This document shows, in pieces, positions 2,370 to 17,937 of a DNA stretch of 20,580 bases. The notes beneath the pieces are model-generated. The model was not told where the DNA came from, searched no databases, and worked only from the letters and a program-made list of their open reading frames with translations. The translations under genes were made by a program, and so were the position numbers. The DNA is from a virus: positions 1 through 20,580 of IMG/VR virus record IMGVR_UViG_3300027621_000426. One strand, given 5' to 3'. Within the stretch, counting starts at the first letter, position 1. Every line of letters starts with the position of its first letter.

Positions 2370-2882
2370 GTGACCAAGGCCGCAAGTATCAACGACCTGA
2401 CGGCGCCGCACAGTGAAGCCAAGTCGTTTGACGCATGGTTCTTTGCACAGCCCAAGAAGGTGCAGGATAAGATGCGCGAGTCCGGCGTGCTGCCCTACCG
2501 CGAGATGGTACAGTCTAGGCACGTGTTCTGCATCGACGCTAATCATCCCAAGTGGGCGTTTAATCCTACAGCTGATGAGCACCGCACTGAGGTCGACGCG
2601 TTTATCTCTCGCGATCATGTCGGCGTCATGCTCAAGGCGTTCATGGATGCGCTGGCCTGCTCATCGTCGCTCAAGTTCAGGCGCCACGTGGAGATGATCC
2701 GTTGGGCGCTGTCTCTCCCTGGCTGTCTCGACTCACGCACCATCGCCCGGATGTATGGACGCTCTCACATCTGGGCACAGAAGCGGGCGCGTCAGATTCG
2801 TTCGACAGTGAACGGTGACGCGTGCGGATTGTTCCCGCACATCAATTCCAGACGCGACAAACATAAGATGCCACGCCGATGA
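2370..2882 (+). CDS. Hypothetical protein with C-terminal helix-turn-helix
   Basis: 170 residues from a GTG start. In-frame upstream codons end at a TGA (2343), and the nearby ATG at 2362 reads only three codons before a stop, so GTG at 2370 is the best choice. Residues about 118-144 (GCLDSRTIARMYGRSHIWAQKRARQIR) look like a sigma-region-4 or transposase-type HTH. The N-terminal half has no motif I can name. Such HTH proteins just before terminase genes are often phage regulators, but function is not shown. The stop TGA overlaps an ATG at 2879 (ATGA) that opens a micro-ORF. Confidence 0.68.
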   Translation: MTKAASINDLTAPHSEAKSFDAWFFAQPKKVQDKMRESGVLPYREMVQSRHVFCIDANHPKWAFNPTADEHRTEVDAFISRDHVGVMLKAFMDALACSSSLKFRRHVEMIRWALSLPGCLDSRTIARMYGRSHIWAQKRARQIRSTVNGDACGLFPHINSRRDKHKMPRR

Positions 2883-5959: not shown

Positions 5960-6063
5960 GCACGCTATCTGCAAGGGTGCGCCGGACGGTGTTGCAAGAA
6001 GGAAGAAGCTTGTGGCGTGGGCTGGTCGGCGCACCCCCCTCTTCGTTCCAATCTGGGCAATAA
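5956..6063 (+). CDS. Candidate micro-ORF, 35 aa, between large terminase and gpW-like gene
   Basis: ATG at 5956-5958 overlaps the terminase stop as ATGA. The frame has 35 codons and ends TAA at 6061-6063, three bases before the gpW-like ATG at 6067, so it fills the gap exactly. The product is Arg-rich: it starts MSTLSARVRRTVLQEG, continues RSLWRGLVGAP and ends SSFQSGQ. No family is recognised. A 10-bp inverted repeat (5975-5984 with 6027-6036) lies within it, so the region might instead, or also, act as structured RNA. The two-sided fit makes a real gene more likely than not. Confidence 0.55.
   Translation: MSTLSARVRRTVLQEGRSLWRGLVGAPPSSFQSGQ
5975..6036. repeat. Inverted repeat with 10-bp arms
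   Basis: GGGTGCGCCG at 5975-5984 and CGGCGCACCC at 6027-6036 are perfect reverse complements with a 42-nt loop, inside which GCAAG and CTTGT could pair. No T-run follows. In RNA this would be a stable stem upstream of the gpW-like start. Confidence 0.6.
6048..6060 (+). promoter_or_regulatory. Leader motif CCAAN3GGGCAA, copy 1
   Basis: CCAATCTGGGCAA lies 6 nt before the ATG at 6067. It is one of five copies of this 13-mer placed just upstream of head or tail genes. Function unknown. Confidence 0.55.
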
Positions 6064-6066
6064 CAA

Positions 6067-6321
6067 ATGGCTCAAGGACTCTTCATTGGACTTACGGAGT
6101 GCGAACTCCTCGACCTTAAAGCTAAGGCTCTCGCCCTAATCACTGAAGGTAAGACCTTGATGTCCTACTCCGATTCCGGCTCTTCGGCCTCCAAGCAGTT
6201 CGCTATGCCCCCGAAGGAGATGCTCGCCGAGGCCATGTTTGCCCTAAGCCGCCTAGACCCGGCCACCTACGGACGCAGGACCACGGTCATCTCGACCTCC
6301 TGGTCTACGCGCCGCGACTAA
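6067..6321 (+). CDS. gpW-like head-tail joining protein
   Basis: 84 residues, between large terminase and portal, which is the position of gene W in lambda (gpW is 68 aa). An N-terminal helix (LTECELLDLKAKALALITEGK, residues about 9-29), a polar turn (SYSDSGSSASKQF) and a second helix (PKEMLAEAMFALSRLD, 49-64) match the helix-hairpin-helix pattern of gpW. Role: after packaging, binding at the portal to stabilise the head and create the site for the next connector protein. The identification rests on order and helix layout more than on exact sequence. The start has no Shine-Dalgarno sequence but has the leader motif at 6048-6060. Confidence 0.68.
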   Translation: MAQGLFIGLTECELLDLKAKALALITEGKTLMSYSDSGSSASKQFAMPPKEMLAEAMFALSRLDPATYGRRTTVISTSWSTRRD

Positions 6322-6324
6322 TCT

Positions 6325-7857
6325 ATGGCCCCCCGCAAGACCAAAGTCCCCACTGTCAGCCTCCGTAAGCCCGTCCTCAAGGCGGCTGCTGTTGCGCGTT
6401 CGCTCAAGCCACAGGCCGCCATCATGGACACTGGCACCGGCAGCGGCTTCGGTGGCAGCTACTCCGGTTGGCAGAGCACGATGTTCTCGAACGCTCGCCG
6501 TGCCATCTTCGGCCAAGCACCTGGCGACCTACGCCAAGACCTGACGCCGTGGAACCGCATGGCGATGATCCGCAAGTGCCGATGGGCAGAGCGGAACAGC
6601 GGCCTGTTCAAACAGATTCTTAATGACATGGTGCTCTACTCCGTGGGCGACGGCATCAAGGCTCAGTCCCACGCGTCGACCCCAGAGATGCAAGAAATCT
6701 ACGAGGCTTACTTCGCTGAGAAGGGCAAGCGCATCGACATCACGAACCGCTTTTCGTTCTACAACTGTCAGGCCATCCTTCTCCGCGGCATGATCCGAGA
6801 CGGTGACTCGTTCGCCGCCAAGGTGCGTAACGCTACCGGCGATGCAAAACTCCAGCTGATGGAAGCCCACCGCGTCGGCGACCCGCTCGACGAGAACGTG
6901 GTCATCCCTGGCATCCACGACGGTATCGTCTACGGCGCCTACGGTGAATACACTGCCGTCAACGTCTACAAGTCGGACGGCAGCAACCGCCAGATTCTTG
7001 CTCAGTCCATGATGCACGTCGTCGACCATGAGTACGCCAGCGGGTGCCGCGGCATCCCTCTCCTGCAATCCAGCATCAACTCCATCCAAGACGAGATGGA
7101 GATTCTCGCCCTCGAGAAGCAGGCCGTGAAGGACAACGGTGACGTGGTCCGCACGATTCAGAAGCAGGGCGGCGTCCTCGATCAGGACACGGCCAACGAG
7201 CTCGGCGCACTGAACACCCCTTCGTATACCTCCATCGCAAACACGATGGGCGGCAAACTCCTAGTGCTCGACCAAGGCGAGTCCCTCAACTCCTTCCAGA
7301 GCAACCGCCCCAACAGCACCTTCACCGGCTTCCTTGCAGCGCTTGAACGCGACATCGCTCAGGGCGTCCTGCCTTACGAGTTTGTCGGCGACTCATCCAA
7401 ACTAGGCGGCGCCACGGTTCGCCTCGTGACCGCCAAGGCTGGCCGCGTCTTTGCCAAGTACCAGACCATCGTCATCGAGCAGTTCTGCGTGCCGACTTGG
7501 GGCTACATCATCGGTCAGGGCATCGCCGCCGGCGACATCCCAGACGATCCGAAGTGGACCGAAGTCTCTTGGACGACCCCGAAGTCTGTCACCGTCGACG
7601 CTGGCCGCGAAGCCGCTAATGACCGTGCTGACGTGGAGATGGGCCTGCTGTCCATGTCTGAGCTCTACGCCCAGCGCGGCCTAGACTTCCGCACCGAGAT
7701 GAACAAGCGCGCCGCTGACATGGTGCATATTCAAGACCTTGCCAAGCAGTACGGCATCCCCTTCGAGCTGCTCTTCCGCCCGACCAACACCCCGATCGGT
7801 ACGGTCGAGGCTGTCGACGAAGACGAGCTTGCCGCCACCGACGAACCAAACTCCTAA
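6325..7857 (+). CDS. Portal protein, lambda gpB family
   Basis: 510 residues, typical length. The N-terminal part, with YSGWQSTMFSNARRAIFGQAPGD, then DLTPWNRMAMIRKCRWAERN and LFKQILNDMVLYSVGDGIK, is the usual opening of lambda-type portals; the middle has FYNCQAILLRGMIRDGDSFA followed by LQLMEAHRVGDP. Role: the dodecameric ring at the special vertex, through which DNA enters and leaves and on which terminase and neck dock. The ATG is 3 nt after the gpW-like stop. The C-terminus is acidic (VEAVDEDELAATDEP). Very confident from length, motifs and order. Confidence 0.92.
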   Translation: MAPRKTKVPTVSLRKPVLKAAAVARSLKPQAAIMDTGTGSGFGGSYSGWQSTMFSNARRAIFGQAPGDLRQDLTPWNRMAMIRKCRWAERNSGLFKQILNDMVLYSVGDGIKAQSHASTPEMQEIYEAYFAEKGKRIDITNRFSFYNCQAILLRGMIRDGDSFAAKVRNATGDAKLQLMEAHRVGDPLDENVVIPGIHDGIVYGAYGEYTAVNVYKSDGSNRQILAQSMMHVVDHEYASGCRGIPLLQSSINSIQDEMEILALEKQAVKDNGDVVRTIQKQGGVLDQDTANELGALNTPSYTSIANTMGGKLLVLDQGESLNSFQSNRPNSTFTGFLAALERDIAQGVLPYEFVGDSSKLGGATVRLVTAKAGRVFAKYQTIVIEQFCVPTWGYIIGQGIAAGDIPDDPKWTEVSWTTPKSVTVDAGREAANDRADVEMGLLSMSELYAQRGLDFRTEMNKRAADMVHIQDLAKQYGIPFELLFRPTNTPIGTVEAVDEDELAATDEPNS

Positions 7858-7861
7858 CTTT

Positions 7862-8650
7862 ATGCGCTTCCTCACTAACGGACTTTCTGGCAGAGAGCCA
7901 CTTTTAATCGACCCGGCTAAGGCCAAGGACCACGCTGTCCTGGCTGAGAAGTTCGGCTTCACCGATATGCTTGCGCAGCTCTTCGGAGTTTCCCCCAAGC
8001 CCTACGTCACCGCTGACGGCATCGGCGTCATCCCGGTCTACGGTGTAATCGGCAAAGGTCTGACCCCTATCGAAAAGATGATGGGCGCCGCTGACGTGGA
8101 TGAACTCTCTGCCGCTATCGACGCGTTCGCCATGAACCCCGATGTGACGCGTATTGCCCTGCAAGTATCCTCACCTGGTGGCACGGTCACCGGCATTGAG
8201 GAACTCGCCAACAAGGTCCGCAACCTTGAGAAGCCGACGATGGCCTACACCGACACCGAGATGGCTTCCGCTGCCTACTGGGTCGCCTCCGCCGCTGATC
8301 GCGTCCTTTCCTCCAAGTCTGCCACGGTCGGCAGTATCGGGGTCTACCTCGCTGTGCCTGACTATTCCGAAGCCGCCAAGATGGCTGGTATCAAGATGGT
8401 CGTCATCAAGTCTGGCAAGTACAAGGGCGCCGGCATCGAAGGCACGACCCTTGACGAAGGCCAGATGGCGAACCTTCAAGAGAGCGTGGACGAAATCCAC
8501 TCCGAGTTCAAAGCCGCAGTCCTGATGAAGCGCAAGATGGTCAAGGCCGAAGCCATGGAAGGCCAGACCTTCTCGGGCAAGCAGGCCGCCGCCCAGGGCT
8601 TAGTGACTGGGCTGGCTGACTCCTTCTCCGAAGCCCTGCGGTCCTTCTAA
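7862..8650 (+). CDS. Prohead protease, S49 (SppA/ClpP-like) family
   Basis: 262 residues from the ATG at 7862; the frame is open back to 7739, but that stretch overlaps the portal gene and reads as low-complexity Ser/Pro sequence. The S49 fold is visible: GVIPVYGVIGKG (55-66), VSSPGGTVTG (102-111), MASAAYWVAS with nucleophile Ser136, the ATVGSIGVYL strand, and SGKYKGAG with Lys188. The Ser-Lys spacing of 52 residues equals that of the B. subtilis SppA dyad (Ser147/Lys199). Role: maturation cleavage of portal, scaffold or capsid proteins in the prohead, as lambda gpC. In lambda the scaffold is nested in the protease gene; here it is a separate gene. Confidence 0.9.
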   Translation: MRFLTNGLSGREPLLIDPAKAKDHAVLAEKFGFTDMLAQLFGVSPKPYVTADGIGVIPVYGVIGKGLTPIEKMMGAADVDELSAAIDAFAMNPDVTRIALQVSSPGGTVTGIEELANKVRNLEKPTMAYTDTEMASAAYWVASAADRVLSSKSATVGSIGVYLAVPDYSEAAKMAGIKMVVIKSGKYKGAGIEGTTLDEGQMANLQESVDEIHSEFKAAVLMKRKMVKAEAMEGQTFSGKQAAAQGLVTGLADSFSEALRSF

Positions 8651-8674
8651 GTTTCCATCTCCCGCATTACCAAG

Positions 8675-9112
8675 ATGACCATCGAAGAACAACTGCTCGA
8701 AGCCTCGGCTGCCCTCTCGGGCCTTACCGCCGAACGCGATGACCTCCGTGCCACCGTCGAGAAGCTCACCGTCGGCGCCGCCGCGGAACTCGAAAGCCTG
8801 AAGGTCGAAGCCGCCGTCAAGGACGCTTCCATCGCCAGCCTCACCGAAGTCGTCAAGACCATCGAAGCCGAAGCCGCCGCCCTCAAGGCCGCCGCTGTCG
8901 AAGCTGAAGCCGTCAAGGTCAGCGCCTCCAAAGAGGCCGCTAAGATTGCCGCGTCTGTCGGCGTCACCCCGGTTGCCCTTCCCCAGGGCGACGGTGCTCC
9001 TGCCGAGGCCGTCAACCACTACGTCGCTTTCATGGCCCTGCCTGTCGGGTCCAAGGAACGCAACGCCTACTTTGAGGCCCATCGCTCCGCGATCATCAAG
9101 GCCTCCTTTTAA
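8675..9112 (+). CDS. Capsid assembly scaffold-like protein
   Basis: 145 residues. Residues about 1-95 are an uninterrupted Ala/Glu/Lys-rich coiled coil. A linker with SVGVTPVALPQGDG (94-107) leads to a short C-terminal domain (HYVAFMALPVGSKERNAYFEAH, then a helix ending IIKASF). A coiled coil plus a small capsid-binding tail, placed between protease and major capsid protein, is the layout of a scaffold such as lambda Nu3. Codon use is strongly C-ending, as in the capsid gene. No enzymatic motif. It could alternatively be a decoration protein, but the coiled coil argues against that. Confidence 0.75.
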   Translation: MTIEEQLLEASAALSGLTAERDDLRATVEKLTVGAAAELESLKVEAAVKDASIASLTEVVKTIEAEAAALKAAAVEAEAVKVSASKEAAKIAASVGVTPVALPQGDGAPAEAVNHYVAFMALPVGSKERNAYFEAHRSAIIKASF

Positions 9113-9143
9113 TTTCCCTCAACCCTACCTAATCAAACATCAT
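9102..9143 (+). promoter_or_regulatory. G-free, pyrimidine-rich leader of the capsid gene
   Basis: No G occurs from 9102 to 9143, right up to the last base of the capsid ATG. There is no Shine-Dalgarno sequence. An unstructured leader of this kind can support initiation without one; this is inference. Confidence 0.5.
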
Positions 9144-10014
9144 GGCTAATTCCATCACCGCCGCCCCGTCAGTACTGTCGGCTGGCGTCCTCTCCGCTCT
9201 CGTCAACAAGTTGCCCGTTCTCTCGGGTATCTCGTCTGTCTTCTCCGCCCGTCCCGGCTCCTCCGGCATGAGCATCCAGGTCCCGCTCATCGGCACCTCG
9301 ACCGCTACTGCCTTCGGCTCTGGTGGCTACCTCACCCAGGACGACGCGACGATCACCGCCGCGACTGTCTCGCTCTCGCACTTCAAGATTTCCAGCCGCT
9401 TCACCCCTTCGAACCTGAAGGACTACGGCGCTGACTTCTTCGTGCAGAACTTCGTTCAGACCGCCTCAATCGGTCTCGCCCAGAAGGTCATGGACGTCAT
9501 CAACACTCAGGTCACCAACGCTAACTACAGCGTCTCGACTGTCTCTGGTGCTGCCCTCTCGTACCTCGAACTCGTCGGAGTCCAGAAGACCCTCGACGAC
9601 GCCAAGGCCCCGAGCCCTCGCTACGCCGTGCTGAACAGCACCTACATCTCTGACCTCCGTCAGGATACCACGATCGTTGGCAACAACGTCCTCGGTGCCT
9701 CCATCATCCGCGACGGCGACCTCGGCATCATCGCCGGCGCCCGCATCTACCAGTTCGCCAACCTCGCTACCAACTCCGAGAATCTCGCAGGCTGGGTTGC
9801 TGGTCCTGACGCTATCGCCTTCGCCTCCGCCCTGCCTGACTCCGAAGGCATCCCCGGCTTCGAAGTCTCGAACGCTACGGACGCCGGCACGGGTCTCGGT
9901 GTCCAGGTGCTCGTCGGCATGGAGCAGTCTGGCTTCCTGAACGTTACCGCCACGCTGCTCTTCGGCGCTGCTGTCGGTCGCTCGACCTCCCTCGTCCGCC
10001 TCAAGACCGCCTAA
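9142..10014 (+). CDS. Major capsid protein, HK97-like fold (P22-coat-like)
   Basis: 290 residues. Position after protease and scaffold, a small hydrophobic N-terminal region, and the stretch ISSRFTPSNLKDYGADFFVQ (about 93-112) followed by a spine-like helix (GLAQKVMDVINTQV) fit the HK97-fold coats. SVSTVSGAALSYLELVGVQKTLDDAK and RYAVLNSTYISDLRQD are typical of coat proteins with the 'create index/assign' layout. It lacks a long cleavable N-terminal delta domain because scaffolding is separate. Codon choice is the most biased in the window (nearly all C-ending), consistent with very high expression. It is followed by a strong terminator. Family subtype is less certain than the general role. 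Confidence 0.86.
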   Translation: MANSITAAPSVLSAGVLSALVNKLPVLSGISSVFSARPGSSGMSIQVPLIGTSTATAFGSGGYLTQDDATITAATVSLSHFKISSRFTPSNLKDYGADFFVQNFVQTASIGLAQKVMDVINTQVTNANYSVSTVSGAALSYLELVGVQKTLDDAKAPSPRYAVLNSTYISDLRQDTTIVGNNVLGASIIRDGDLGIIAGARIYQFANLATNSENLAGWVAGPDAIAFASALPDSEGIPGFEVSNATDAGTGLGVQVLVGMEQSGFLNVTATLLFGAAVGRSTSLVRLKTA

Positions 10015-10036
10015 TAGCGGCCAAGGCTACGAACTT

Positions 10037-10064
10037 AAGGGGCTCAGTAATGGGCCCCTTTTTT
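10037..10064 (+). terminator. Rho-independent terminator after the capsid gene
   Basis: AAGGGGC (10037-10043) pairs with GCCCCTT (10054-10060), extendable by one wobble and one C-G pair, and is followed by a T-run to 10064. It is the clearest intrinsic terminator in the window and separates head genes from connector/tail genes. Confidence 0.85.
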
Positions 10065-10075
10065 GTGCCTAGTTG

Positions 10076-10088
10076 CCAAAGCGGGCAA
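10076..10088 (+). promoter_or_regulatory. Leader motif CCAAN3GGGCAA, copy 2 (in a small hairpin)
   Basis: CCAAAGCGGGCAA lies 7 nt before the ATG at 10096. TTGCC (10073-10077) pairs with GGCAA (10084-10088) around a 6-nt loop. Confidence 0.6.
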
Positions 10089-10095
10089 GTATAGG

Positions 10096-10473
10096 ATGAG
10101 CCTCTACGCTGACTTTCTCGCTGACGCCAAAGAGATGATCGCGGACTTCGGCGTGGCCGGAACCGCCAACTCTGGGGCCATCACCTTCCAGTGCCTTATC
10201 TCCGACCCCGCCGTGATGACCGTCCTCGAAGCAGGTGGGTATATGGAGCGGACCCAGTACTCGGTCAGGATGCCTGCTGTAACGGCCTCCTGGACGCTCC
10301 CAGACGGGTCTAATGGGTCATCGGCGGCCCTACTGTCGGCAGGTGTCCCCATCGCCAGCCTAGGCCAGGGCAAGAAAATCGTCGCTAGCGGTAAGACCGT
10401 CCGCATCACGACCCAGACCTACAAGCCCGGGTCGGCATGGATCACGCTCGTCGTCATCGACGATAACCAGTAA
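10096..10473 (+). CDS. Head-closure/head-tail joining protein candidate
   Basis: 125 residues from ATG 10096; the frame is open to 10063, but that part contains the terminator T-run and the leader motif. A short N-terminal helix (YADFLADAKEMIADFG), then mostly beta strands: SVRMPAVTASWTL, a turn region GKKIVASGKTVRITTQTY and a final strand AWITLVVIDD. This layout is like lambda FII or other head-closure barrels, and it is the first gene after the capsid protein. Function is inferred from position and strand pattern, not from a diagnostic motif. Confidence 0.5.
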   Translation: MSLYADFLADAKEMIADFGVAGTANSGAITFQCLISDPAVMTVLEAGGYMERTQYSVRMPAVTASWTLPDGSNGSSAALLSAGVPIASLGQGKKIVASGKTVRITTQTYKPGSAWITLVVIDDNQ

Positions 10474-10481
10474 CCGCTGCC

Positions 10482-11462
10482 GTGGTCGAAATCCGCGTCA
10501 CCCCTAAGTCTCAGGCTGAGTTCATCACGGCCTGTCGCAAGTTTGCGGCGCTGACCGGGCAGACCATGCGAGACGCCTGCCTAGAACAAGCCGCCCTGGC
10601 CTGCCAAGACGCGGCGAACTTTACGCCTCCTATGCCAAAGGGCGGGGTGCCTATGCCTCCGCGAAAGGGCATCGGTCGTGGCCTCTCGAAAGCCGCCCAG
10701 ACAGCTGGCGACGAAGCCATTGCCGGCGACATGAAGAAGATGTTTGTCGCGGCCAACGATCGCAGCTCAACCTCGGCCTCGCCCCTGCTGACCAATCAGC
10801 TGGCCTACGCCACCAAGACCAACGACCTCGGCCTGTTTAATAAAATCATCGGCAAGGGCACGCTCTCTGCGCTCAAGGGACTGTCGCCCATCATGCGCAA
10901 GATTGCCAACGACCGCGACTATGACCGGGCGTTCAAGAAGGCTAAGAACTACTTTAACACGACCAACCCCGTGATGACCGATTATGGCCAGGGCTTCGTC
11001 CAGGACATCCGCTCAATCCACAACCGCATTAAGGGCAAGTTCGGTGGCCGCATCGGCAAGGGCATCCGCCCGACCAAGGTTAAGATGCTTGTCGAGACCA
11101 AGGGCGAACTAAACCAATACATCCTCGACCGCCAGAAGATGGTCGGCATGATCAAGTCCGGATGGGCGTCGGCCCTGCGCTCCCTGCCTAAGCCCGTCAT
11201 CAACGGCATTCCTAAAGACTTTGGGGTCGACCTCCTCAAGGTGGCTTGGATTAACCGGCACACGCAAGTCCTGGGAAGAAACAGCCTTATGGCTAATGAG
11301 AAGGTCGTCGAGCTGAGTGTCACCAACACCGAGGGCAACGTGAACAACATCGCCGTAGACGCGCGCGTCCTTCCCTTGGTGTACGGCAACCGCATCAAAC
11401 AGATGCATCTACGATTCAAAAGGCACTTCGACAAGGCTGTCGAAATCTCCAACCGCCGTTAA
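10482..11462 (+). CDS. Neck/minor head or tail-completion-type protein, unidentified
   Basis: 326 residues from a GTG start, 8 nt after the previous stop. It begins with a short strand plus helix (VEIRVTPKSQAEFITACRKFAAL and EQAALACQDAANFTPPMPKGG), a beginning often seen in HK97 gp10-like tail-completion proteins, but it is about twice their length. A basic middle (KGKFGGRIGKGIRPTKVK) and a C-terminal part with WASALRSLPK, GIPKDFGVDLLKVAWINRHTQ follow. Overall very basic. Its place between head closure and tail terminator suggests a connector or minor structural protein. I cannot name a family with confidence. Confidence 0.55.
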   Translation: MVEIRVTPKSQAEFITACRKFAALTGQTMRDACLEQAALACQDAANFTPPMPKGGVPMPPRKGIGRGLSKAAQTAGDEAIAGDMKKMFVAANDRSSTSASPLLTNQLAYATKTNDLGLFNKIIGKGTLSALKGLSPIMRKIANDRDYDRAFKKAKNYFNTTNPVMTDYGQGFVQDIRSIHNRIKGKFGGRIGKGIRPTKVKMLVETKGELNQYILDRQKMVGMIKSGWASALRSLPKPVINGIPKDFGVDLLKVAWINRHTQVLGRNSLMANEKVVELSVTNTEGNVNNIAVDARVLPLVYGNRIKQMHLRFKRHFDKAVEISNRR

Positions 11463-11468
11463 GCCCCT

Positions 11469-11488
11469 TTCCCTACCAAAGCGGGCAA
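11469..11488 (+). promoter_or_regulatory. Leader motif CCAAN3GGGCAA, copy 3 (11476-11488) with hairpin arm
   Basis: CCAAAGCGGGCAA at 11476-11488 is identical to copy 2 and ends 7 nt before ATG 11496. Upstream CCTTTCCC can pair with GGG(C)AAAGG that overlaps the motif, leaving one bulged C. Confidence 0.58.
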
Positions 11489-11495
11489 AGGTACA

Positions 11496-11927
11496 ATGGG
11501 AACGAAAAGTATCAGGCATATCGTGGAATCCACAGTCGCGACTTACCTCTCGACCCAGACTGGGCTGACCACCGTGTCCTTCCTGACCGGGGACAACAAC
11601 GCCACCCAGACCTTACCCAAGGCCGTGGTCCTTTGCGAAGCCGCCCGGGCACCGTCCGACCTCCCCGAAGGCGAAGGCAACTTCTCCTGCTCGGTCCGCA
11701 TCACCCTGTTCTCGAACGCCGACGACACGACCCTCGCCGATCACCGCCTCCGCTGCGCTGCCCTGTCCGGCAATATGCGTGACCTGGTCTCCATCAAGGC
11801 GGCCTTTACGGCCACTGGGGACGCGTCCTGCTATGACGTTACCATGCAGTCCGAAGACGAAGGGGTCGACGAGCGCTCCTGGGCGACGGCCTTCACCTTT
11901 GACGTCCTGACGGTCTTCCCCGCGTAA
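11496..11927 (+). CDS. Tail terminator/tail completion protein candidate
   Basis: 143 residues. An N-terminal helix (SIRHIVESTVATYLSTQTG), then a strand with LPKAVVLCEAARAPSDLPEGEGNFSCSVRITLFSN, a helical segment (HRLRCAALSGNMRDL) and a final beta part (YDVTMQSEDEGVDERSWATAFTFDVLTVFP). The alpha-beta layout and about 140-residue size suit tail-terminator (gpU-like) proteins that cap the tail tube beneath the neck. It sits directly before the tube candidate, the order expected in siphoviruses. No diagnostic motif. Confidence 0.5.
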   Translation: MGTKSIRHIVESTVATYLSTQTGLTTVSFLTGDNNATQTLPKAVVLCEAARAPSDLPEGEGNFSCSVRITLFSNADDTTLADHRLRCAALSGNMRDLVSIKAAFTATGDASCYDVTMQSEDEGVDERSWATAFTFDVLTVFPA

Positions 11928-11932
11928 GGTTA

Positions 11933-11945
11933 CCAAACCGAGCAA
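11933..11945 (+). promoter_or_regulatory. Leader motif CCAAN3GGGCAA, copy 4
   Basis: CCAAACCGAGCAA, with one change in the GGG block, ends 8 nt before the ATG at 11954. Confidence 0.48.
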
Positions 11946-11953
11946 CTGTATCT

Positions 11954-12331
11954 ATGGCAGCTATCTCAAACGGCACGGTCTGCTTGTACGCAATTTCAGG
12001 TACTGTTACGAATTTATTCGTGCAATCCTACAGCCTGTCCTCCTCGTTCAACGCTGAGGCCACAGTGGTCGACGAAACTGGCCTGACCAAGACCCACCGG
12101 CTGGACGACAGGAAAAGTGAGATTACTATCGAGGGTGTCTGCAAAACGTCATCGGTCCCAGTGCTTGGTGCGACACTCAGCTTCACGCTTAACGCTTTGA
12201 CCGCTTACCCATCTGGCTCGGCCTCGGTTTCGTTTAGCGGAGTCATCACTAAGATTGACGAGAAGGGCTCTAACAAGGGCTTTACCGCAGTCACCGTGAC
12301 GGCCATCGACTACGAAGGCATCACGATGTAA
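11954..12331 (+). CDS. Tail tube (major tail) protein candidate
   Basis: 125 residues, almost wholly beta strand: NGTVCLYAISGTVTNLFVQSY, then a helix-poor middle with ETGLTKTHRLDDRKSEITIEG, then VSFSGVITKIDEKGSNKGFTAVTVTAIDY. The DDRKSEITIEG part resembles the strand before the hairpin in small tail-tube or tube-initiator proteins. Order (terminator candidate before, chaperone candidate after) agrees. It would stack as rings around the tape measure. Small for a tube protein, so a tube-initiator role is the alternative. Confidence 0.5.
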   Translation: MAAISNGTVCLYAISGTVTNLFVQSYSLSSSFNAEATVVDETGLTKTHRLDDRKSEITIEGVCKTSSVPVLGATLSFTLNALTAYPSGSASVSFSGVITKIDEKGSNKGFTAVTVTAIDYEGITM

Positions 12332-12337
12332 CTGCCA

Positions 12338-12363
12338 CTTGCCTTGGCTTCGGCTTAGGCAAG
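12338..12363 (+). promoter_or_regulatory. Hairpin with degenerate leader motif (copy 6) before the chaperone gene
   Basis: CTTGCCT (12338-12344) and AGGCAAG (12357-12363) are perfect complements around a 12-nt loop. The 3' arm holds GGCAA, 11 nt before ATG 12374; the CCAA half of the motif is not conserved. No T-run follows, so it is not an intrinsic terminator. Confidence 0.5.
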
Positions 12364-12373
12364 TATCGGTTGC

Positions 12374-12949
12374 ATGGACAAGCGGTTCCTTTCTGCCTTC
12401 ATCGACCCGGCGCCTCTTCCGAGGTTTTTGGGTCGAACCCTTTACCCGTGGTGCCTCAAGTACCGGGTGCGCCTGATGGCCTTCGACTCCCCGCTGGTGA
12501 CGGGCTCTCGCGGCATCACCCCTGCCGATCTAATCTTCGCCTGTCAGGTGTGCGCTGAAGAACCCCTGGGCGAGATTGGCTGGCGTGACCAGCTGCGGAT
12601 GCTTTCCCTTGCCCGCAACCCTGCCAAGTTTGAAGCCATGCTCGAAGCCTTTGCCGGCTACATCCTCGTGCAGGACTGGCCTAAGTTCTGGGAGCAGACG
12701 GCCAAGAAGAGCAGCGGAGGAAGCAAGGGCGTCCCGTGGCCGCTGTCGATTGTGGCCAACCTAATCACCAACGGCATCGACGAAAAGCGGGCGTGGGAAA
12801 TGCCGGAGTGCCAAGCCATCTGGCTCAACTCCGCCCTGGCTATCGCTAAGGGTGCGGACGTGGCGATCATGTCGCCCGAGGAGGAAGCCTTCATGGCCGA
12901 GGAGGAAGCCAAGGAGGCCGCTTCCAATCCTGCAAAGGAAACCCCCTGA
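12374..12949 (+). CDS. Tail assembly chaperone-like protein
   Basis: 191 residues, predicted mostly alpha-helical. It opens with FLGRTLYPWCLKYRVRLMAFDSPLVTG and continues with an FEAMLEAFAGYILVQDWPKFW helix. A C-terminal part has WPLSIVANLITNGIDEKRAWEMP, then AIWLNSALAIAKG, and a Glu-rich tail (EEEAFMAEEEAKE). This resembles chaperones encoded between tail tube and tape measure that keep the tape measure soluble. No lambda G/GT-type slippery heptamer is obvious; the C5 run before the stop is noted separately. The next gene starts 2 nt after its stop. Confidence 0.5.
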   Translation: MDKRFLSAFIDPAPLPRFLGRTLYPWCLKYRVRLMAFDSPLVTGSRGITPADLIFACQVCAEEPLGEIGWRDQLRMLSLARNPAKFEAMLEAFAGYILVQDWPKFWEQTAKKSSGGSKGVPWPLSIVANLITNGIDEKRAWEMPECQAIWLNSALAIAKGADVAIMSPEEEAFMAEEEAKEAASNPAKETP

Positions 12950-12951
12950 CG

Positions 12952-13728
12952 ATGGCTCAAGAACTAACAGTCAACATCAAGACCACCTCGGATGTCCCGC
13001 AGGCAATGGACAAGGCTAAGACTGCCACGGTATCCTTTGGTAAGCAGGTCGAGGACATCCAGAAGAAGTTTAGCACCGCCTTCAAAGACATCTTCCTCGG
13101 CTTCACTGCCCCGATGATTCTCATCCAGTCGGCTATCAGTTACATTTCTGCCCAGATGGAGCAGGCCCGCCGTGACGCCAAGGAAGGGCTTGACCTAATT
13201 GCCCAGGGCAAGAGCGAGTTTGCTTCTTCGGAGGAGGCCAAGACCGCCGCATTTTTTAAGCGCCGCAAAGAGCTGGAGGAAGAAAGGCGCCTTGTTCAAC
13301 AAGGGCGTGCCAGCCTGACCGAACAGATTTTAACCGATCCAGAGCTCGGCAAGGGCTTTGTCCCTCCTCAGCGTATCATGCAACGCCTAAAGTCCGGCGA
13401 AAGCATCAAGGGCGTATCCACGGACGAAGAGCTGGGACGCATGGCGATGGACTTCCTTAAGCAGACTGAAAAGGGTCGTAAAATCTTGGCTGAAGGTGCC
13501 CCTTTGGATTCAACCAAAAGCACCACCCCAACATCCTTCAAAGGCCCCGAGGGCTTCTCCAACGTCGTTGGCGTCGGCGCTAACCCGGTGCTTCAATACA
13601 TGACACGGCAGACCGACATCCAGCAGGAAATCTTAGAAATCTTAAAGCAGAACCGAAGCAACGAGGGCGAAGGCGTTCCTGCACCGTGGACTGAACGCAT
13701 CAAACTTAACCAAATTGGAATCACCTAA
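12952..13728 (+). CDS. Short tape-measure-like protein
   Basis: 258 residues. The start LTVNIKTTSDVPQAMDKAKTAT, an early amphipathic/hydrophobic segment (DIFLGFTAPMILIQSAISYISAQ, about 46-68), a long charged helical part (RRDAKEGL to EEERRLVQQG), and the GFSNVVGVGANPVLQYMTRQTDIQQEILEIL helix near the end (201-231) all resemble phage tail tape-measure proteins, but these usually exceed 600 residues. At about 1.5 Angstrom per residue a 258-residue ruler would give a tail near 39 nm. Position after the chaperone supports the call. It could alternatively be a tail-internal protein of a short-tailed virion. Confidence 0.5.
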   Translation: MAQELTVNIKTTSDVPQAMDKAKTATVSFGKQVEDIQKKFSTAFKDIFLGFTAPMILIQSAISYISAQMEQARRDAKEGLDLIAQGKSEFASSEEAKTAAFFKRRKELEEERRLVQQGRASLTEQILTDPELGKGFVPPQRIMQRLKSGESIKGVSTDEELGRMAMDFLKQTEKGRKILAEGAPLDSTKSTTPTSFKGPEGFSNVVGVGANPVLQYMTRQTDIQQEILEILKQNRSNEGEGVPAPWTERIKLNQIGIT

Positions 13729-13733
13729 AATTT

Positions 13734-14573
13734 ATGGCAAGAATAGACTCTGGAAACGATTTAGCCACAGCCATCATTCAGCCTGGCTGGACTGTAAGTA
13801 ACGACGGCTTCGGTCTCGTCACATCGACGACTAGGTATAAAGCCGACTGGGGCTTTGACATCGACGCGCTCACTGATCGCGGCACACCTCACCCAGACCC
13901 GACATACTCATTCCTGACGGCTCATAAATATAACGTGTCATGGGACGCCCTTAGCATCGCCACGGTGACGGTCGATTATGTCGGCATCGACCCGGACGTT
14001 AATGGTGGCGAATTTACTCAAGCCAACACTTCGGCTGCCAACGGACTAACCTCCGAGAACATCACGGCGCATCCCAATTTCTTTACCCCGCAAGCTGGTT
14101 TCCTTGGAGCCATTGCCGGCCCTGCCCCGTATACGCAAGACAGCCCGGACAACCTTGCGCCTACGGTAAACGGAAAGCCAGCGTTCCTCGGCCTTAACGG
14201 ATCGTGCTTTGAGAAGGAATCTGGTGGCCGCTTCATCGGCTTTGTTGACCCTTCTTATCCACAGTATTACGGCAAGACTCAGTACCTTGCTCAGACGACT
14301 TCTTACTCGGGCGTCATCTATTTGGTCGATAACGCTTATGTGATGTCGCTGGTCGATAGCCTTATGACCTCATCCCCGACTCAGTCCTGGGGTGGCTTTG
14401 AGCTTCTCCCAGACTGGGCTCCGATTGGCGCTGGTCTTTACGGCAACCCAAGAAACTTGCTTTCCCAAGTTAACGTCGAAGAATTCGGAATCATTTATAA
14501 GGTTATGTACGAAATTCGCTTCTCTGGACCGGGATGGGAACTTGACGTTTATAAACAGACAGCCGCACCCTGA
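13734..14573 (+). CDS. Tail structural protein, unidentified (279 aa)
   Basis: 279 residues, strand-rich, with many aromatic and Gly/Pro residues (YSFLTAHKYNVSWDALS, VTVDYVGIDPDVNGGEF, GGRFIGFVDPSYPQYYG). No signal peptide, no catalytic motif. The sequence style is that of a virion distal-tail or tip protein. The stop TGA overlaps the ATG of the next gene as TGATG (14571-14575), so they are coupled. Its place between the tape measure and the largest structural gene suggests a distal tail or baseplate role; this is inference from order. Confidence 0.55.
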   Translation: MARIDSGNDLATAIIQPGWTVSNDGFGLVTSTTRYKADWGFDIDALTDRGTPHPDPTYSFLTAHKYNVSWDALSIATVTVDYVGIDPDVNGGEFTQANTSAANGLTSENITAHPNFFTPQAGFLGAIAGPAPYTQDSPDNLAPTVNGKPAFLGLNGSCFEKESGGRFIGFVDPSYPQYYGKTQYLAQTTSYSGVIYLVDNAYVMSLVDSLMTSSPTQSWGGFELLPDWAPIGAGLYGNPRNLLSQVNVEEFGIIYKVMYEIRFSGPGWELDVYKQTAAP

Positions 14574-16867
14574 TGAGCCTCCAGCCAGGAACAGGGTTTA
14601 CTTTCTCGTCCTCTGGTAGCGGGACAAACTTCAACGTTCAACAGCCCTGGAGCGAATGGTCGCCTGGTGGAACACTGGAGCAGTTCCAGATTGTCGTCTC
14701 GCCCTACTCATCCGAAGAAGGCCCGCCCACTCAGTCCCTTATCCGCGTCGTCAAAGGCGAAGTCGTCTGGAGCCCTAAGCTACTGCAAGAGAACCCGTTG
14801 ATTCCCATCCCGATTGCGTCTACCTGCGTAGCTCAGACAACGATTACGGAATGGTTCGGAGGTATCCCCTACACCTCCATTGATGACGATAAGGACGAAT
14901 ACATCGGCAACGGCGGTCTGCTGGTTTCAAACGCAGCGGTCAATATCGGCATTTTCATTTTTAAGGCCACAAATCTTCCAGCGGATTATGATCCGATTAT
15001 CGTAGCCGTTCCCGACTTTGCTCCATCCTGCCCGGTAGTATTCCCTCTTACTCCTCCCATTGAAGCCGCCTTCTGGGACTTGGTTAAAATTGGCAGTGTT
15101 ACATATGTGGATGGTGGCTGGGTAATTACCCAGAAGTTCATCGGTTCCATGACCCTGCCCGGTGATGGCAAGGGCAACCAGCCCGTCACTTCTCTGCAGC
15201 TCCCGGCCCAGCTCGTCTACGGTGACGGCTCTGGCGGCATCCCTTCCCCGTTTGAGTGCAAGATTGTCAGCATTAACGGTCAGCGGTTCCTGCAAATCGG
15301 CGTGGGGTCTATCAACTACACTTCAAGCGCTATGCCACTTATCAAGGGCGGCGCCGCGACGCGGATCATGCAAGCCTATGCCAACAAGGTGCAAATCTGC
15401 CCGAGCGGAACCCGTACCTATGGCGACCTTTACCCGCTATACCCTTTTGACCAGCCGAGCTACTCCCTGACGGCATGGATGGAAGACGGTGGGGGCTATG
15501 AGTTATCTGACACAAACGACCCGGTAACCCTGTACGCCTTCAAGTGGGATGTGGCTGTCGGCGTTGAACCTTTTAACGAAAGCGGCGTGGTCAACACTGG
15601 CCTCCCGACGCTGGCCTTGCTTGCTTCGTCTAACAGCTCCGACATTAACAAGGTCGCCGTGGACCCGGGCCCCTCCCTCTACGTCCAGACGATGAACATC
15701 CAGCCGATGACTGGATATAGTAACTTACCCGCGCCGTTCCCGGATAGCGACTGGGGCTACTGTCACACCTCCTGGCTAAACCCGCGTAAGTTAGGCTACA
15801 GTTACAAGGCCATCGCCACCGTCACCCCAGAAGCAAACACCTTTTCCATGGTCGGGTCTATCGAGCGCGTCGGCATTCCGCTTGTTCAGAATCAAGTCCA
15901 GCACATCAGCCTGATCGGCAAGGCGTCGGGCGGCATTGCTTTAATCAGCTGCGGCGGAAGTGTCTCGACTATCCCCTTCCCGGTTACGACCTTCTGGGAC
16001 GCGGTTGCTCCAGTCTACTCGGACGAGTTGACCCTGGCTAACTGCCTAAACTCCATGCCGCCTATCACCTTGACGGTAGCCGGCGAGCCCGTGGTCATCC
16101 CGTTCACTGGGAATGTCGCGGTTAGTAGGACCACCGAGGGCTCTTACTACGTCACTTTCTGCAATCAGTTGCAGGGCCTCAACCCTCCCCAGCTTGTCTT
16201 CAACACTGGGGCCGTTACGGCCTATGCATACGATTTCCAGATTACCCAATACGTCACCGGGAACATCGACCTGACGACGCCGATGCAGACGGGCATGGTG
16301 CAACTGCGGAACGTGCCAGACGAGGACGAAGCGGACGACCCCTATAACGCCAACGAAGAAGCGGAATGGGACCAGATTGTGAACAAGGCCGAGTGCCTGG
16401 CTTGCACTGGCTTCTCTGGGGACGTCACGACCGACGGCATGTTTAACATGACTGGGGCCGACGCCATCCCTGTGGATTACAGCATCGCGAACGCTTGTGG
16501 CGATCCGTGCGCCCATCCGTTCCATGTGCGTAAGTCGGCCGCGGCAAATACCTTCACGGTCTGCACGGGCATGGTCAACAACGAGATTCCGAACAACAAC
16601 GATTCCACCTTCGGAATCGAGAACGGCTTTATCTACCTTGAGGTTCCGTACGACAGCAGCACAAAGGCTTTCCCGAAGGTGGGCGAAGTCATCCTTGCCG
16701 CCGGCGCGGCCGTGCCAGACTCCGACGAAGATTTCTCTTACGTCGCAATCGCCCAGATTGTCGCAGGGGAAGCCAATCAGCTTGTCACCGGATCGCTATG
16801 GGGCGACCGCATCCAAGTCGGCAGCGGGATTACCCTCAACGCCTACTACTATTACGCGCAAGTCTGA
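14573..16867 (+). CDS. Large tail-tip/baseplate-type structural protein (764 aa)
   Basis: 764 residues, almost entirely beta and turn. It begins MSLQPGTGFTFSSSGSGTNFN and has long regions with Gly/Asn/Pro turns. Near residue 582-600 is an acidic stretch (DEDEADDPYN, then NEEAEWD), then a Cys/His-rich patch: Cys608, Cys611, Cys642, Cys646, His648, His651, Cys664. The C-terminal about 115 residues (from HPFHVRKSAA) form a compact-looking domain ending in ITLNAYYYYAQV. This is the longest gene of the tail module and is TGATG-coupled on both sides, consistent with a tail tip or baseplate hub. I cannot assign a named family. Confidence 0.62.
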   Translation: MSLQPGTGFTFSSSGSGTNFNVQQPWSEWSPGGTLEQFQIVVSPYSSEEGPPTQSLIRVVKGEVVWSPKLLQENPLIPIPIASTCVAQTTITEWFGGIPYTSIDDDKDEYIGNGGLLVSNAAVNIGIFIFKATNLPADYDPIIVAVPDFAPSCPVVFPLTPPIEAAFWDLVKIGSVTYVDGGWVITQKFIGSMTLPGDGKGNQPVTSLQLPAQLVYGDGSGGIPSPFECKIVSINGQRFLQIGVGSINYTSSAMPLIKGGAATRIMQAYANKVQICPSGTRTYGDLYPLYPFDQPSYSLTAWMEDGGGYELSDTNDPVTLYAFKWDVAVGVEPFNESGVVNTGLPTLALLASSNSSDINKVAVDPGPSLYVQTMNIQPMTGYSNLPAPFPDSDWGYCHTSWLNPRKLGYSYKAIATVTPEANTFSMVGSIERVGIPLVQNQVQHISLIGKASGGIALISCGGSVSTIPFPVTTFWDAVAPVYSDELTLANCLNSMPPITLTVAGEPVVIPFTGNVAVSRTTEGSYYVTFCNQLQGLNPPQLVFNTGAVTAYAYDFQITQYVTGNIDLTTPMQTGMVQLRNVPDEDEADDPYNANEEAEWDQIVNKAECLACTGFSGDVTTDGMFNMTGADAIPVDYSIANACGDPCAHPFHVRKSAAANTFTVCTGMVNNEIPNNNDSTFGIENGFIYLEVPYDSSTKAFPKVGEVILAAGAAVPDSDEDFSYVAIAQIVAGEANQLVTGSLWGDRIQVGSGITLNAYYYYAQV

Positions 16868-17571
16868 TGCCCGCTTCCGTCGTCAACATCGGTGGCCCTA
16901 CGTCTCAAAACACTTGGGCAGCCGTGCGCTGTCCTTTGTATAAAGGCACTGGATTCAGGGACGAAGTTCTACCTGCAAATAAAAACTGGAGCAGGGCCTA
17001 TCAACCCTATGCTACACAAACTCCATTTAGTTCTGGTTACCCTGATACGGTCACCCCGTTGATGCGGGCCTTTCCATTTATGAAAGGCTTTTCAAACAGC
17101 TCTTCAGGACGTTCTACCTCGATGGGTCTGGGAGTTCGTTATTTTTACATTCAAATTGGTGACGAAACTACTCCGTATATTTTGGAGTTCTTCCTTTGTG
17201 TGGGCGAAGGCTTTGTTACTAAATACTTCCCAGAGCCTACAAAAATTGATGAGGGCGTTTACATGGGTTACGGAGACTTTGGACCAGACCCAGACAGCGG
17301 TCTGGTTGGGTATGACATCAATTCAACTAGAGGTATTATGAAAGACGCCACTGTGTCCGTAAACCTAAAGCCTGGTCCTACTCTCGGCACGGTCAGCGTA
17401 TCTAAAACGCTAAACACGATTAACCTTGAGAAGCTTTTCCCCGATGACGTTTCTGGGGAAAAATATGATGCCACGTCCGGTATATCGCTTGGGCAGTTTA
17501 CTTGGCCCGTTAACCCGACCGAAGATTGGGTGCCGCCGCATTGGAGCATTACCTCGGTCGCGCTGGCTTAA
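16867..17571 (+). CDS. Tail protein of unknown function, AT-richer than neighbours
   Basis: 234 residues from ATG 16867, which overlaps the preceding stop as TGATG; an in-frame start at 16798 would overlap the neighbour by 69 nt. Strand-rich, with aromatic and Gly-rich runs (LEFFLCVGEGFVTKYFPEP, DEGVYMGYGDFGPDPDSG). No motif known to me. Composition differs from neighbours: 26 of 60 bases are G/C in 16981-17040 and in 17161-17220, against 36 of 60 in 17641-17700. That suggests exchange of this gene from another phage, and a role in the variable tail tip. Confidence 0.6.
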   Translation: MPASVVNIGGPTSQNTWAAVRCPLYKGTGFRDEVLPANKNWSRAYQPYATQTPFSSGYPDTVTPLMRAFPFMKGFSNSSSGRSTSMGLGVRYFYIQIGDETTPYILEFFLCVGEGFVTKYFPEPTKIDEGVYMGYGDFGPDPDSGLVGYDINSTRGIMKDATVSVNLKPGPTLGTVSVSKTLNTINLEKLFPDDVSGEKYDATSGISLGQFTWPVNPTEDWVPPHWSITSVALA

Positions 17572-17578
17572 CCCACCA

Positions 17579-17607
17579 CCCCCCCCTGCCCCTTCCAATT
17601 GGGGCAA
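17579..17607 (+). promoter_or_regulatory. C8 tract, hairpin and leader motif copy 5
   Basis: An eight-C run (17579-17586) is followed by TGCCCC (17587-17592) pairing with GGGGCA (17601-17606) around an 8-nt loop. The motif CCAATTGGGGCAA (17595-17607) overlaps the 3' arm and ends 12 nt before ATG 17620. Confidence 0.52.
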
Positions 17608-17619
17608 GATTAAGACCCG

Positions 17620-17937
17620 ATGAGCTGCAACACCGTCACCTTTAAGCGCGGCACGTCCTTTGGGGCGGCTGTTGTCTATACACCTGAAGCGGGCGGCCTT
17701 GCCAACCTGATCGGCGTGACCGTGACCTCGACCATCATCGACGCGGACCGCAACGAGTTTCAGCTAGTGACCGTGGTGGCCGGCAATGGCCTGTCCTTCA
17801 CGGCTGAGTACGACGGCGACACTGGGGACTGGGCGATTGGCACGGCCCGCTGGGACATCAAGTTTACGAACAACGACTCCATCTTTTACTCCGACACGAT
17901 GCGCATCGACGTCATCGGTCAGGTAACCACCGTCTAA
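17620..17937 (+). CDS. Small baseplate/fibre-attachment-type protein (Ig-like, BppU-N-like)
   Basis: 105 residues, wholly beta. Begins with a cysteine and a KRGTSF segment, then GVTVTSTIIDADRNEF, ends with TARWDIKFTNNDSIFYSDTMRIDVIG. This is the pattern of small Ig-like proteins that commonly precede tail fibres (N-terminal domain of BppU-type baseplate proteins, with the KRGDTF and W-DI strands). The fibre gene follows after 4 nt. Likely it links the tip to the fibre. Family match is from memory of the pattern only. Confidence 0.52.
   Translation: MSCNTVTFKRGTSFGAAVVYTPEAGGLANLIGVTVTSTIIDADRNEFQLVTVVAGNGLSFTAEYDGDTGDWAIGTARWDIKFTNNDSIFYSDTMRIDVIGQVTTV

Follow-up and report, generated by a model that had tools for sequence, protein, structure and literature searches.

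A conserved element before uncoupled late genes of a phage family probably infecting Verrucomicrobia, with a possible role in translation initiation

A short sequence element recurs before the start codons of late genes in the viral contig IMGVR_UViG_3300027621_000426, of which the whole 20,580-nucleotide stretch (20.58 kb; here called the window) was analyzed together with its relatives. The element, TTnCCAA-N5-GCAA in the clade of the window, is kept before the same late orthologues in related phages, in agreement with the late-gene association made in a first-pass annotation of the window, and it is linked to genes that are not translationally coupled to the gene before them. We tentatively propose that it is a phage-specific, start-associated translation-initiation sequence working in the mRNA, a function that we regard as quite possible.

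The window carries terS, a GpA-type terL, a lambda-type portal gene, an S49 protease gene, the major capsid protein (MCP) gene and genes for the tail; a DnaB-like gene lies upstream. Genes are numbered g01 to g26 along the plus strand, and g12 is assigned as the MCP gene from its position and neighbours. The best similarity of the terL was to terL of Verrucomicrobia phage P8625, and relatives of the MCP in genome collections were located in metagenome-assembled genomes (MAGs) named Opitutae and Verrucomicrobiota. The viruses of this family, found in lakes and the sea, probably infect Verrucomicrobia bacteria; we infer this host, since no more than three loci came up when GTDB was scanned for prophages, two of them in one Opitutae MAG. 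A scan with the MCP yielded 80 loci (about 80 to 100% MCP identity), whose leaders were collected by orthology. Unsupervised expectation maximization on the non-redundant leaders, not seeded by the earlier finding, recovered the element in three clades, each time before g08, g11, g13, g16, g18, and g22, and in some members also before g15. It did not characterize g09, g10, g14, g19, g20, g23, or the early genes, and in the 28.2-kb unit of a nearly complete relative the recognized start-linked copies stood exclusively before late genes. No function was assigned by Pfam or PHROGs to the small genes that bear the element.

In the window, the copies and the one element-like leader are as follows (clade 1 is the clade of the window; gaps are counted from the core to the ATG).

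6045 to 6060, plus strand: element before g08 (ATG at 6067), GTTCCAATCTGGGCAA; core 6048-6060, CCAATCTGGGCAA, exact, 6-nt gap; in 16/16 clade 1 relatives tested.
8652 to 8667, plus strand: diverged copy before g11 (ATG at 8675), TTTCCATCTCCCGCAT; core 8655-8667, CCATCTCCCGCAT, 7-nt gap; TTTCCAACTCCCGCAA in relatives; in 37/38 clade 1 relatives.
10073 to 10088, plus strand: element before g13 (ATG at 10096), TTGCCAAAGCGGGCAA; core 10076-10088, CCAAAGCGGGCAA, exact, 7-nt gap; in 49/49 clade 1 relatives.
11473 to 11488, plus strand: element before g15 (ATG at 11496), CTACCAAAGCGGGCAA; core 11476-11488, CCAAAGCGGGCAA, exact, 7-nt gap.
11930 to 11945, plus strand: element before g16 (ATG at 11954), TTACCAAACCGAGCAA; core 11933-11945, CCAAACCGAGCAA, one mismatch to the consensus, 8-nt gap; in 37/38 clade 1 relatives.
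12339 to 12369, plus strand: element-like leader of g17 (ATG at 12374), TTGCC-N14-GGCAAGTATCGG, seen in the sequence.
12922 to 12935, plus strand: copy before g18 (ATG at 12952), inside the end of g17, TTCCAATCCTGCAA; core 12924-12935, CCAATCCTGCAA, 16-nt gap; in 30/30 clade 1 relatives.
17592 to 17607, plus strand: element before g22 (ATG at 17620), CTTCCAATTGGGGCAA followed by GATTAAGACCCG; core 17595-17607, CCAATTGGGGCAA, exact, 12-nt gap.

The first-pass annotation had described the element as a 13-bp word, CCAAN3GGGCAA, occurring five times in gaps on the plus strand, 6 to 12 nt before an ATG. All five copies are where it placed them; those before g13 and g15 are indeed identical, and the one before g16 differs from both at two positions. 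The inventory was incomplete, as the copies before g11 (8655) and g18 (12924), recognizable only when relatives are compared, had been overlooked. A degenerate further copy, GGCAA at 12358-12362, is followed by the ATG at 12374 after 11 nt; this gene, g17, was named by no family search, and the "chaperone" label given to it earlier is unconfirmed. The five copies are far above chance. Shuffling the whole window gave 0.03 exact copies per shuffle (maximum 1 in 500), and shuffling within the gaps (814 nt) gave 0.007, with four or more in 0/2000 shuffles. Allowing up to one mismatch, the word had no further match on either strand of the window and none within genes. Equal frequency inside genes and a lack of positional bias in relatives, which the annotation had named as grounds for abandoning the element, were both looked for, and neither occurred.

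The three clades carry distinct forms of the element: TTnCCAA-N5-GCAA in clade 1 (spacing N4 or N5), gTTGCC-N7-GCAA in clade 2, and TTkACC-N6-CCAAGGTTAAGA in clade 3. The GGG of the original word is not invariant, and the distance from the left TT to the right CAA is constant between clades. Between clades, all copies shift in concert, which is what a change in a single trans-acting reader would produce. The distance from the element to the start codon is 4 to 12 nt, except at g18 (14 to 21 nt).

Selection on the element itself was evident at several genes. Upstream of g11, the neighbouring genes are non-homologous between loci and conservation sets in with a sharp boundary at GTTTCC, 25 nt ahead of the ATG, so 25 nt suffice at this gene. 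Among 15 distinct relatives at g22, CCAA, GCAA, and TAAGACCCG are invariant or nearly so while the bases between them vary. At g18, where the element lies in the coding sequence of g17, the codons GCT TCC AAT GCA and AAG at the end of g17 have their third base fixed in 26 distinct sequences; the seven g17 codons preceding them vary. At g08, g11, g13, and g16, variability at codon position 3 begins directly after the annotated start codons, which are therefore real, and codons 2 to 9 evolve as coding sequence.

The element is further linked to the absence of translational coupling. Within clade 1, it was present in 139 of 141 cases before the uncoupled genes g08, g11, g13, and g16, and almost never before the close-coupled g09, g10, g14, and g19 to g26, with g18 as the exception. 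The gene g15 occurs in both situations. Where it is located 2 to 13 nt after g14, no locus had the element (0/28), and where about 970 nt of inserted DNA, carrying a gene for an ATP-dependent DNA ligase on the minus strand (for example L095:5131-6051; ligase domain E=2.7e-15), lie between the two, all loci had it (12/12). In the window, g15 has the element, a 33-nt gap, and no ligase gene.

We also considered how the likely host finds its start codons. Shine-Dalgarno sequences are absent at these phage genes, as noted in the first-pass annotation, and the candidate host, an Opitutae MAG (G001; L103, L105-L124, L240-L259), had no Shine-Dalgarno excess in its leaders (11% versus 15% in an upstream control window). 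The element is not itself a Shine-Dalgarno site: the 16S rRNA of Opitutae ends in GGATCACCTCCTTT, with the usual CCTCC tail, and no complement to CCAA-N4-6-GCAA was found anywhere in the 16S sequences searched. Nor does it appear to be a host-wide signal. None of 282 candidate-host leaders reached the 10th percentile of the phage element scores (clades 1 and 3), and 113 class members were at about chance level, as judged against a reversed-pattern control that is poorly matched in codon content. One promising match (G143) turned out to be unrelated. In the candidate host, -35-like words (TTGAC, TTGAA, TTGCC) peak 33 to 36 nt before the ATG (15/131 leaders in one 4-nt bin), which together with the missing Shine-Dalgarno excess may be taken as signs of widespread leaderless transcripts; a second Opitutae genome had neither a Shine-Dalgarno excess nor such a peak.

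From these sequence comparisons, we infer that the element acts in RNA, that it recruits ribosomes, and that a dedicated reader exists. The late messages of the phage would be long and polycistronic, and its host would not use Shine-Dalgarno pairing. Cistrons starting a few nucleotides past the previous stop would be translated by coupling, and most cistrons that cannot couple would carry an element of 16 to 24 nt (TTnCCAA-N5-GCAA plus an A-rich stretch), usually ending 4 to 12 nt before the start codon, which would recruit or position the initiating ribosome. Because the element is absent from candidate-host genes and its copies change together between clades, the reader is probably not rRNA but an RNA-binding factor that evolves fast and is encoded or recruited by the phage. 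Translation initiation, one of the functions suggested in the first-pass annotation, thus holds up, and another of its suggestions, binding of a phage protein, may be part of the same mechanism. In its most specific form, a phage RNA-binding protein would read a bipartite word in the late mRNAs and deliver ribosomes to internal cistrons of a host lacking Shine-Dalgarno pairing, word and reader co-evolving between clades; we consider this form unlikely. One candidate for the reader can be named from its position and a probable helix-turn-helix.

2370 to 2882, plus strand: g04, upstream of terS, a candidate trans-acting factor.

The product of g04 has 148 relatives in viral contigs. It had no family match and its AlphaFold model was poor (pLDDT 48.6); no g04 was recognizable in clade 3 or in P8625.

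Several observations weigh against a role in ribosome positioning. The MCP gene g12 is uncoupled and has no element in any of 46 clade 1 relatives, its leader in the window being G-poor:

9113 to 9141, plus strand: element-free leader of the MCP gene.

The uncoupled g17 likewise lacks the element (0/32 in clade 1), and at g18 the element stands 14 to 21 nt before the ATG of a gene that is already coupled to g17 and therefore does not need a ribosome-positioning site. The fixed internal spacing TTG-N10-CAA, with its partial dyad symmetry, would also suit a DNA-binding protein. Finally, sigma70-like promoters lie 34 to 36 nt before the ATG at corresponding sites in P8625 and at g17 of most clade 1 relatives, so these gene boundaries may be transcription-start sites.

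This last point bears on the main rival to action in RNA, a compact phage-specific late promoter. Here, the host RNA polymerase and a phage factor would read the DNA. Transcripts would start in the space from the element to the ATG and would be leaderless or have a very short leader, as seems to be the case in the host itself. In P8625, TTGACA lies exactly 36 nt before four starts (L082 5412, 10736, 15558, 22406), at least two of which (the g08 and g15 positions) correspond to element sites of the window, and TTGCCA is found at the g13 site. These TTGACA leaders are probably leaderless late promoters, and at uncoupled late starts P8625 thus seems to use such promoters where the family of the window uses the element. 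The g17 leader of most clade 1 relatives is of the form TTGACT-N15-TAnACT-N7-ATG, and the -35-like peak in the candidate host fits the same picture, as does a TA-rich box (TTAAGA in clade 3) that holds its distance to the element and not to the ATG. The g13 element, moreover, is directly 3' of an intrinsic terminator.

10037 to 10064, plus strand: intrinsic terminator between the MCP gene (g12) and the g13 element, seen in the sequence; it is shared by the relatives and P8625, with a conserved tail, TTTTTTGTGCC, and about 30 nt separate it from the start of g13.

The geometry of the element speaks against such a promoter. A sigma70 promoter has a -35 and a -10 hexamer, separated by about 17 bp and located about 35 nt upstream of the transcript start. 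The conserved unit, however, reaches no more than 25 nt upstream of the ATG, and its 3' end is 4 to 7 nt from the ATG in most genes. At g13, the left box is only 23 nt from the ATG, and since codons 2 to 9 evolve as coding sequence, the transcript cannot begin downstream of the ATG. An element plus spacer of about 23 nt, which in some relatives ends only 4 nt before the ATG, is therefore unfit as a sigma70 promoter, and the middle of the element is variable. A sigma54 promoter has GG and GC 10 bp apart (TGGCAC-N5-TTGCW); in the element, the conserved boxes are CCAA and GCAA, and no GG stands at the position required. No RNA polymerase or sigma gene was recognized in near-complete relative genomes; for a single-subunit phage RNA polymerase, a near-complete relative and a MAG contig, each of 28 kb, likewise gave no candidate, with many proteins there belonging to no family. 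The late promoter proposed as one option in the first-pass annotation is thus disfavoured by these distances, and we regard a compact promoter as rather unlikely.

Less probable still, and in our judgment quite unlikely, is that the element is a binding site, in DNA or RNA, through which a phage regulator represses the late genes or sets their timing, in the manner of stoperators or T4 RegA sites, with g04 or another small phage protein as the reader. Like stoperators, the element is short, asymmetric, and found in one orientation in short gaps near starts. The partial dyad, the concerted change between clades, and the conservation of g04 just upstream of terS would all fit. A regulator does not predict the link to uncoupled starts, though, and the MCP, the most abundant product, is without the site. 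Lysogenic silencing is unlikely, because no integrase or immunity repressor family was recognized among the scanned proteins of the near-complete relatives.

The element could also be a recombination linker allowing gene cassettes to be swapped by homologous recombination, given that homology at g11 starts exactly at the element after differing upstream genes and that the element flanks the ligase insertion at g15. This is very improbable: it leaves unexplained the fixed close spacing to start codons, the concerted divergence between clades, and the conservation within coding sequence at g18, where selection is seen, and the element is also present at g16 and g18, loci without cassette exchange. 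An RNA hairpin controlling initiation (TTGCC...GGCAA) can be drawn for single copies, for example TTGCC-N6-GGCAA at g13, but is barely conceivable, as many copies are unable to pair, the arms do not covary, and in all three clades they pair no better than arms re-paired at random (2.87 versus 2.89 of 5 pairs in clade 1).

Some other features of these leaders and loci were noted. The g17 leader (12339-12373 in the window, and relatives) is, within one clade, either sigma70-like with a covarying GCCC...GGGC palindrome or element-like, TTGCC-N14-GGCAAG. Several late leaders of P8625 contain a palindrome of the type GTATCC-N7-GGATAC. In the terL-g08 gap of the window (5975-6036), a conserved core, GGAAGAAGC.TGTGGCGTGGG, is enclosed by a long inverted repeat, GGGTGCGCCG...CGGCGCACCC, whose stem has compensatory changes between clades, e.g., GGGACGC/GCGTCCC to GGGACAC/GTGTCCC. 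This is probably a structured RNA; an Rfam scan of the window gave no match, and its single-sequence folding energy was not unusual (z -0.04). One relative (G007, L096 84-9693) has two capsid cassettes in succession (g11-MCP-g13-... twice) with diverged MCPs. In a 32.85-kb contig (G016, L205/L206), end stretches of about 4.6 kb repeat at about 76% identity, and this contig may join a near-complete genome of 28.2 kb to a related strain, or be a composite made in assembly.

To our knowledge, the finding of internal start codons independently of Shine-Dalgarno pairing is poorly understood, and Verrucomicrobia have hardly been studied. An element at uncoupled late starts that is gained or dropped with coupling, as at g15, offers a testable handle on such initiation, and if the most specific form of our proposal is true, the phage would have a dedicated, Shine-Dalgarno-independent translation-initiation system.

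Contrary to the first-pass annotation, which knew of no described phage leader of this form, a comparable one exists, although its sequence is different. Cluster K mycobacteriophages carry many copies of a 13-bp asymmetric start-associated sequence (SAS), in one orientation and typically 3 to 7 bp before start codons; it is kept in the same gene families of related phages and is essentially absent from the host genome, and its authors proposed a role in translation initiation, stating that the function is unknown and naming no reader (Pope et al. 2011, PMC3203893; PMC11373665). The window element is likewise a short asymmetric word with several copies in one orientation, a few nucleotides before starts, kept before the same gene families in relatives and rare in the genome of the probable host. 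It may work like the SAS but is not the Cluster K SAS, because its consensus is TTnCCAA-N5-GCAA and not GGGATAGGAGCCC. The latter contains the Shine-Dalgarno core AGGAG, whereas CCAAN3GGGCAA has no such core and the likely hosts no Shine-Dalgarno signal. SAS precede non-structural genes and the window element late structural genes; the window element also differs in changing in concert between clades and in its link to uncoupled cistrons. In the extended SAS (ESAS), a SigA promoter and an inverted repeat lie upstream of the SAS, so that a single leader can unite a start-associated word with a promoter (PMC11373665); the window element has no accompanying inverted repeat and -35/-10 pair. The stoperators of L5-like (Cluster A) mycobacteriophages are also asymmetric, about 13 bp long, in one orientation relative to transcription, and located in short intergenic gaps (PMC9283540 and related papers), but they belong to temperate phages, whose repressor binds them to stop elongation, while the sites in the window are tied to start codons and no repressor or integrase was recognized in the scanned proteins. 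The distantly related P8625 has a repeated leader before several corresponding late genes as well, although of a different build, with TTGACA-N17-TATTGG at 36 nt and its palindrome, whereas the window element, measured up to the ATG, spans 23 to 28 nt in most genes and lacks that spacing. If the element does serve translation initiation, start-associated sequences, known from one mycobacteriophage cluster, would have arisen in an unrelated phage lineage too.

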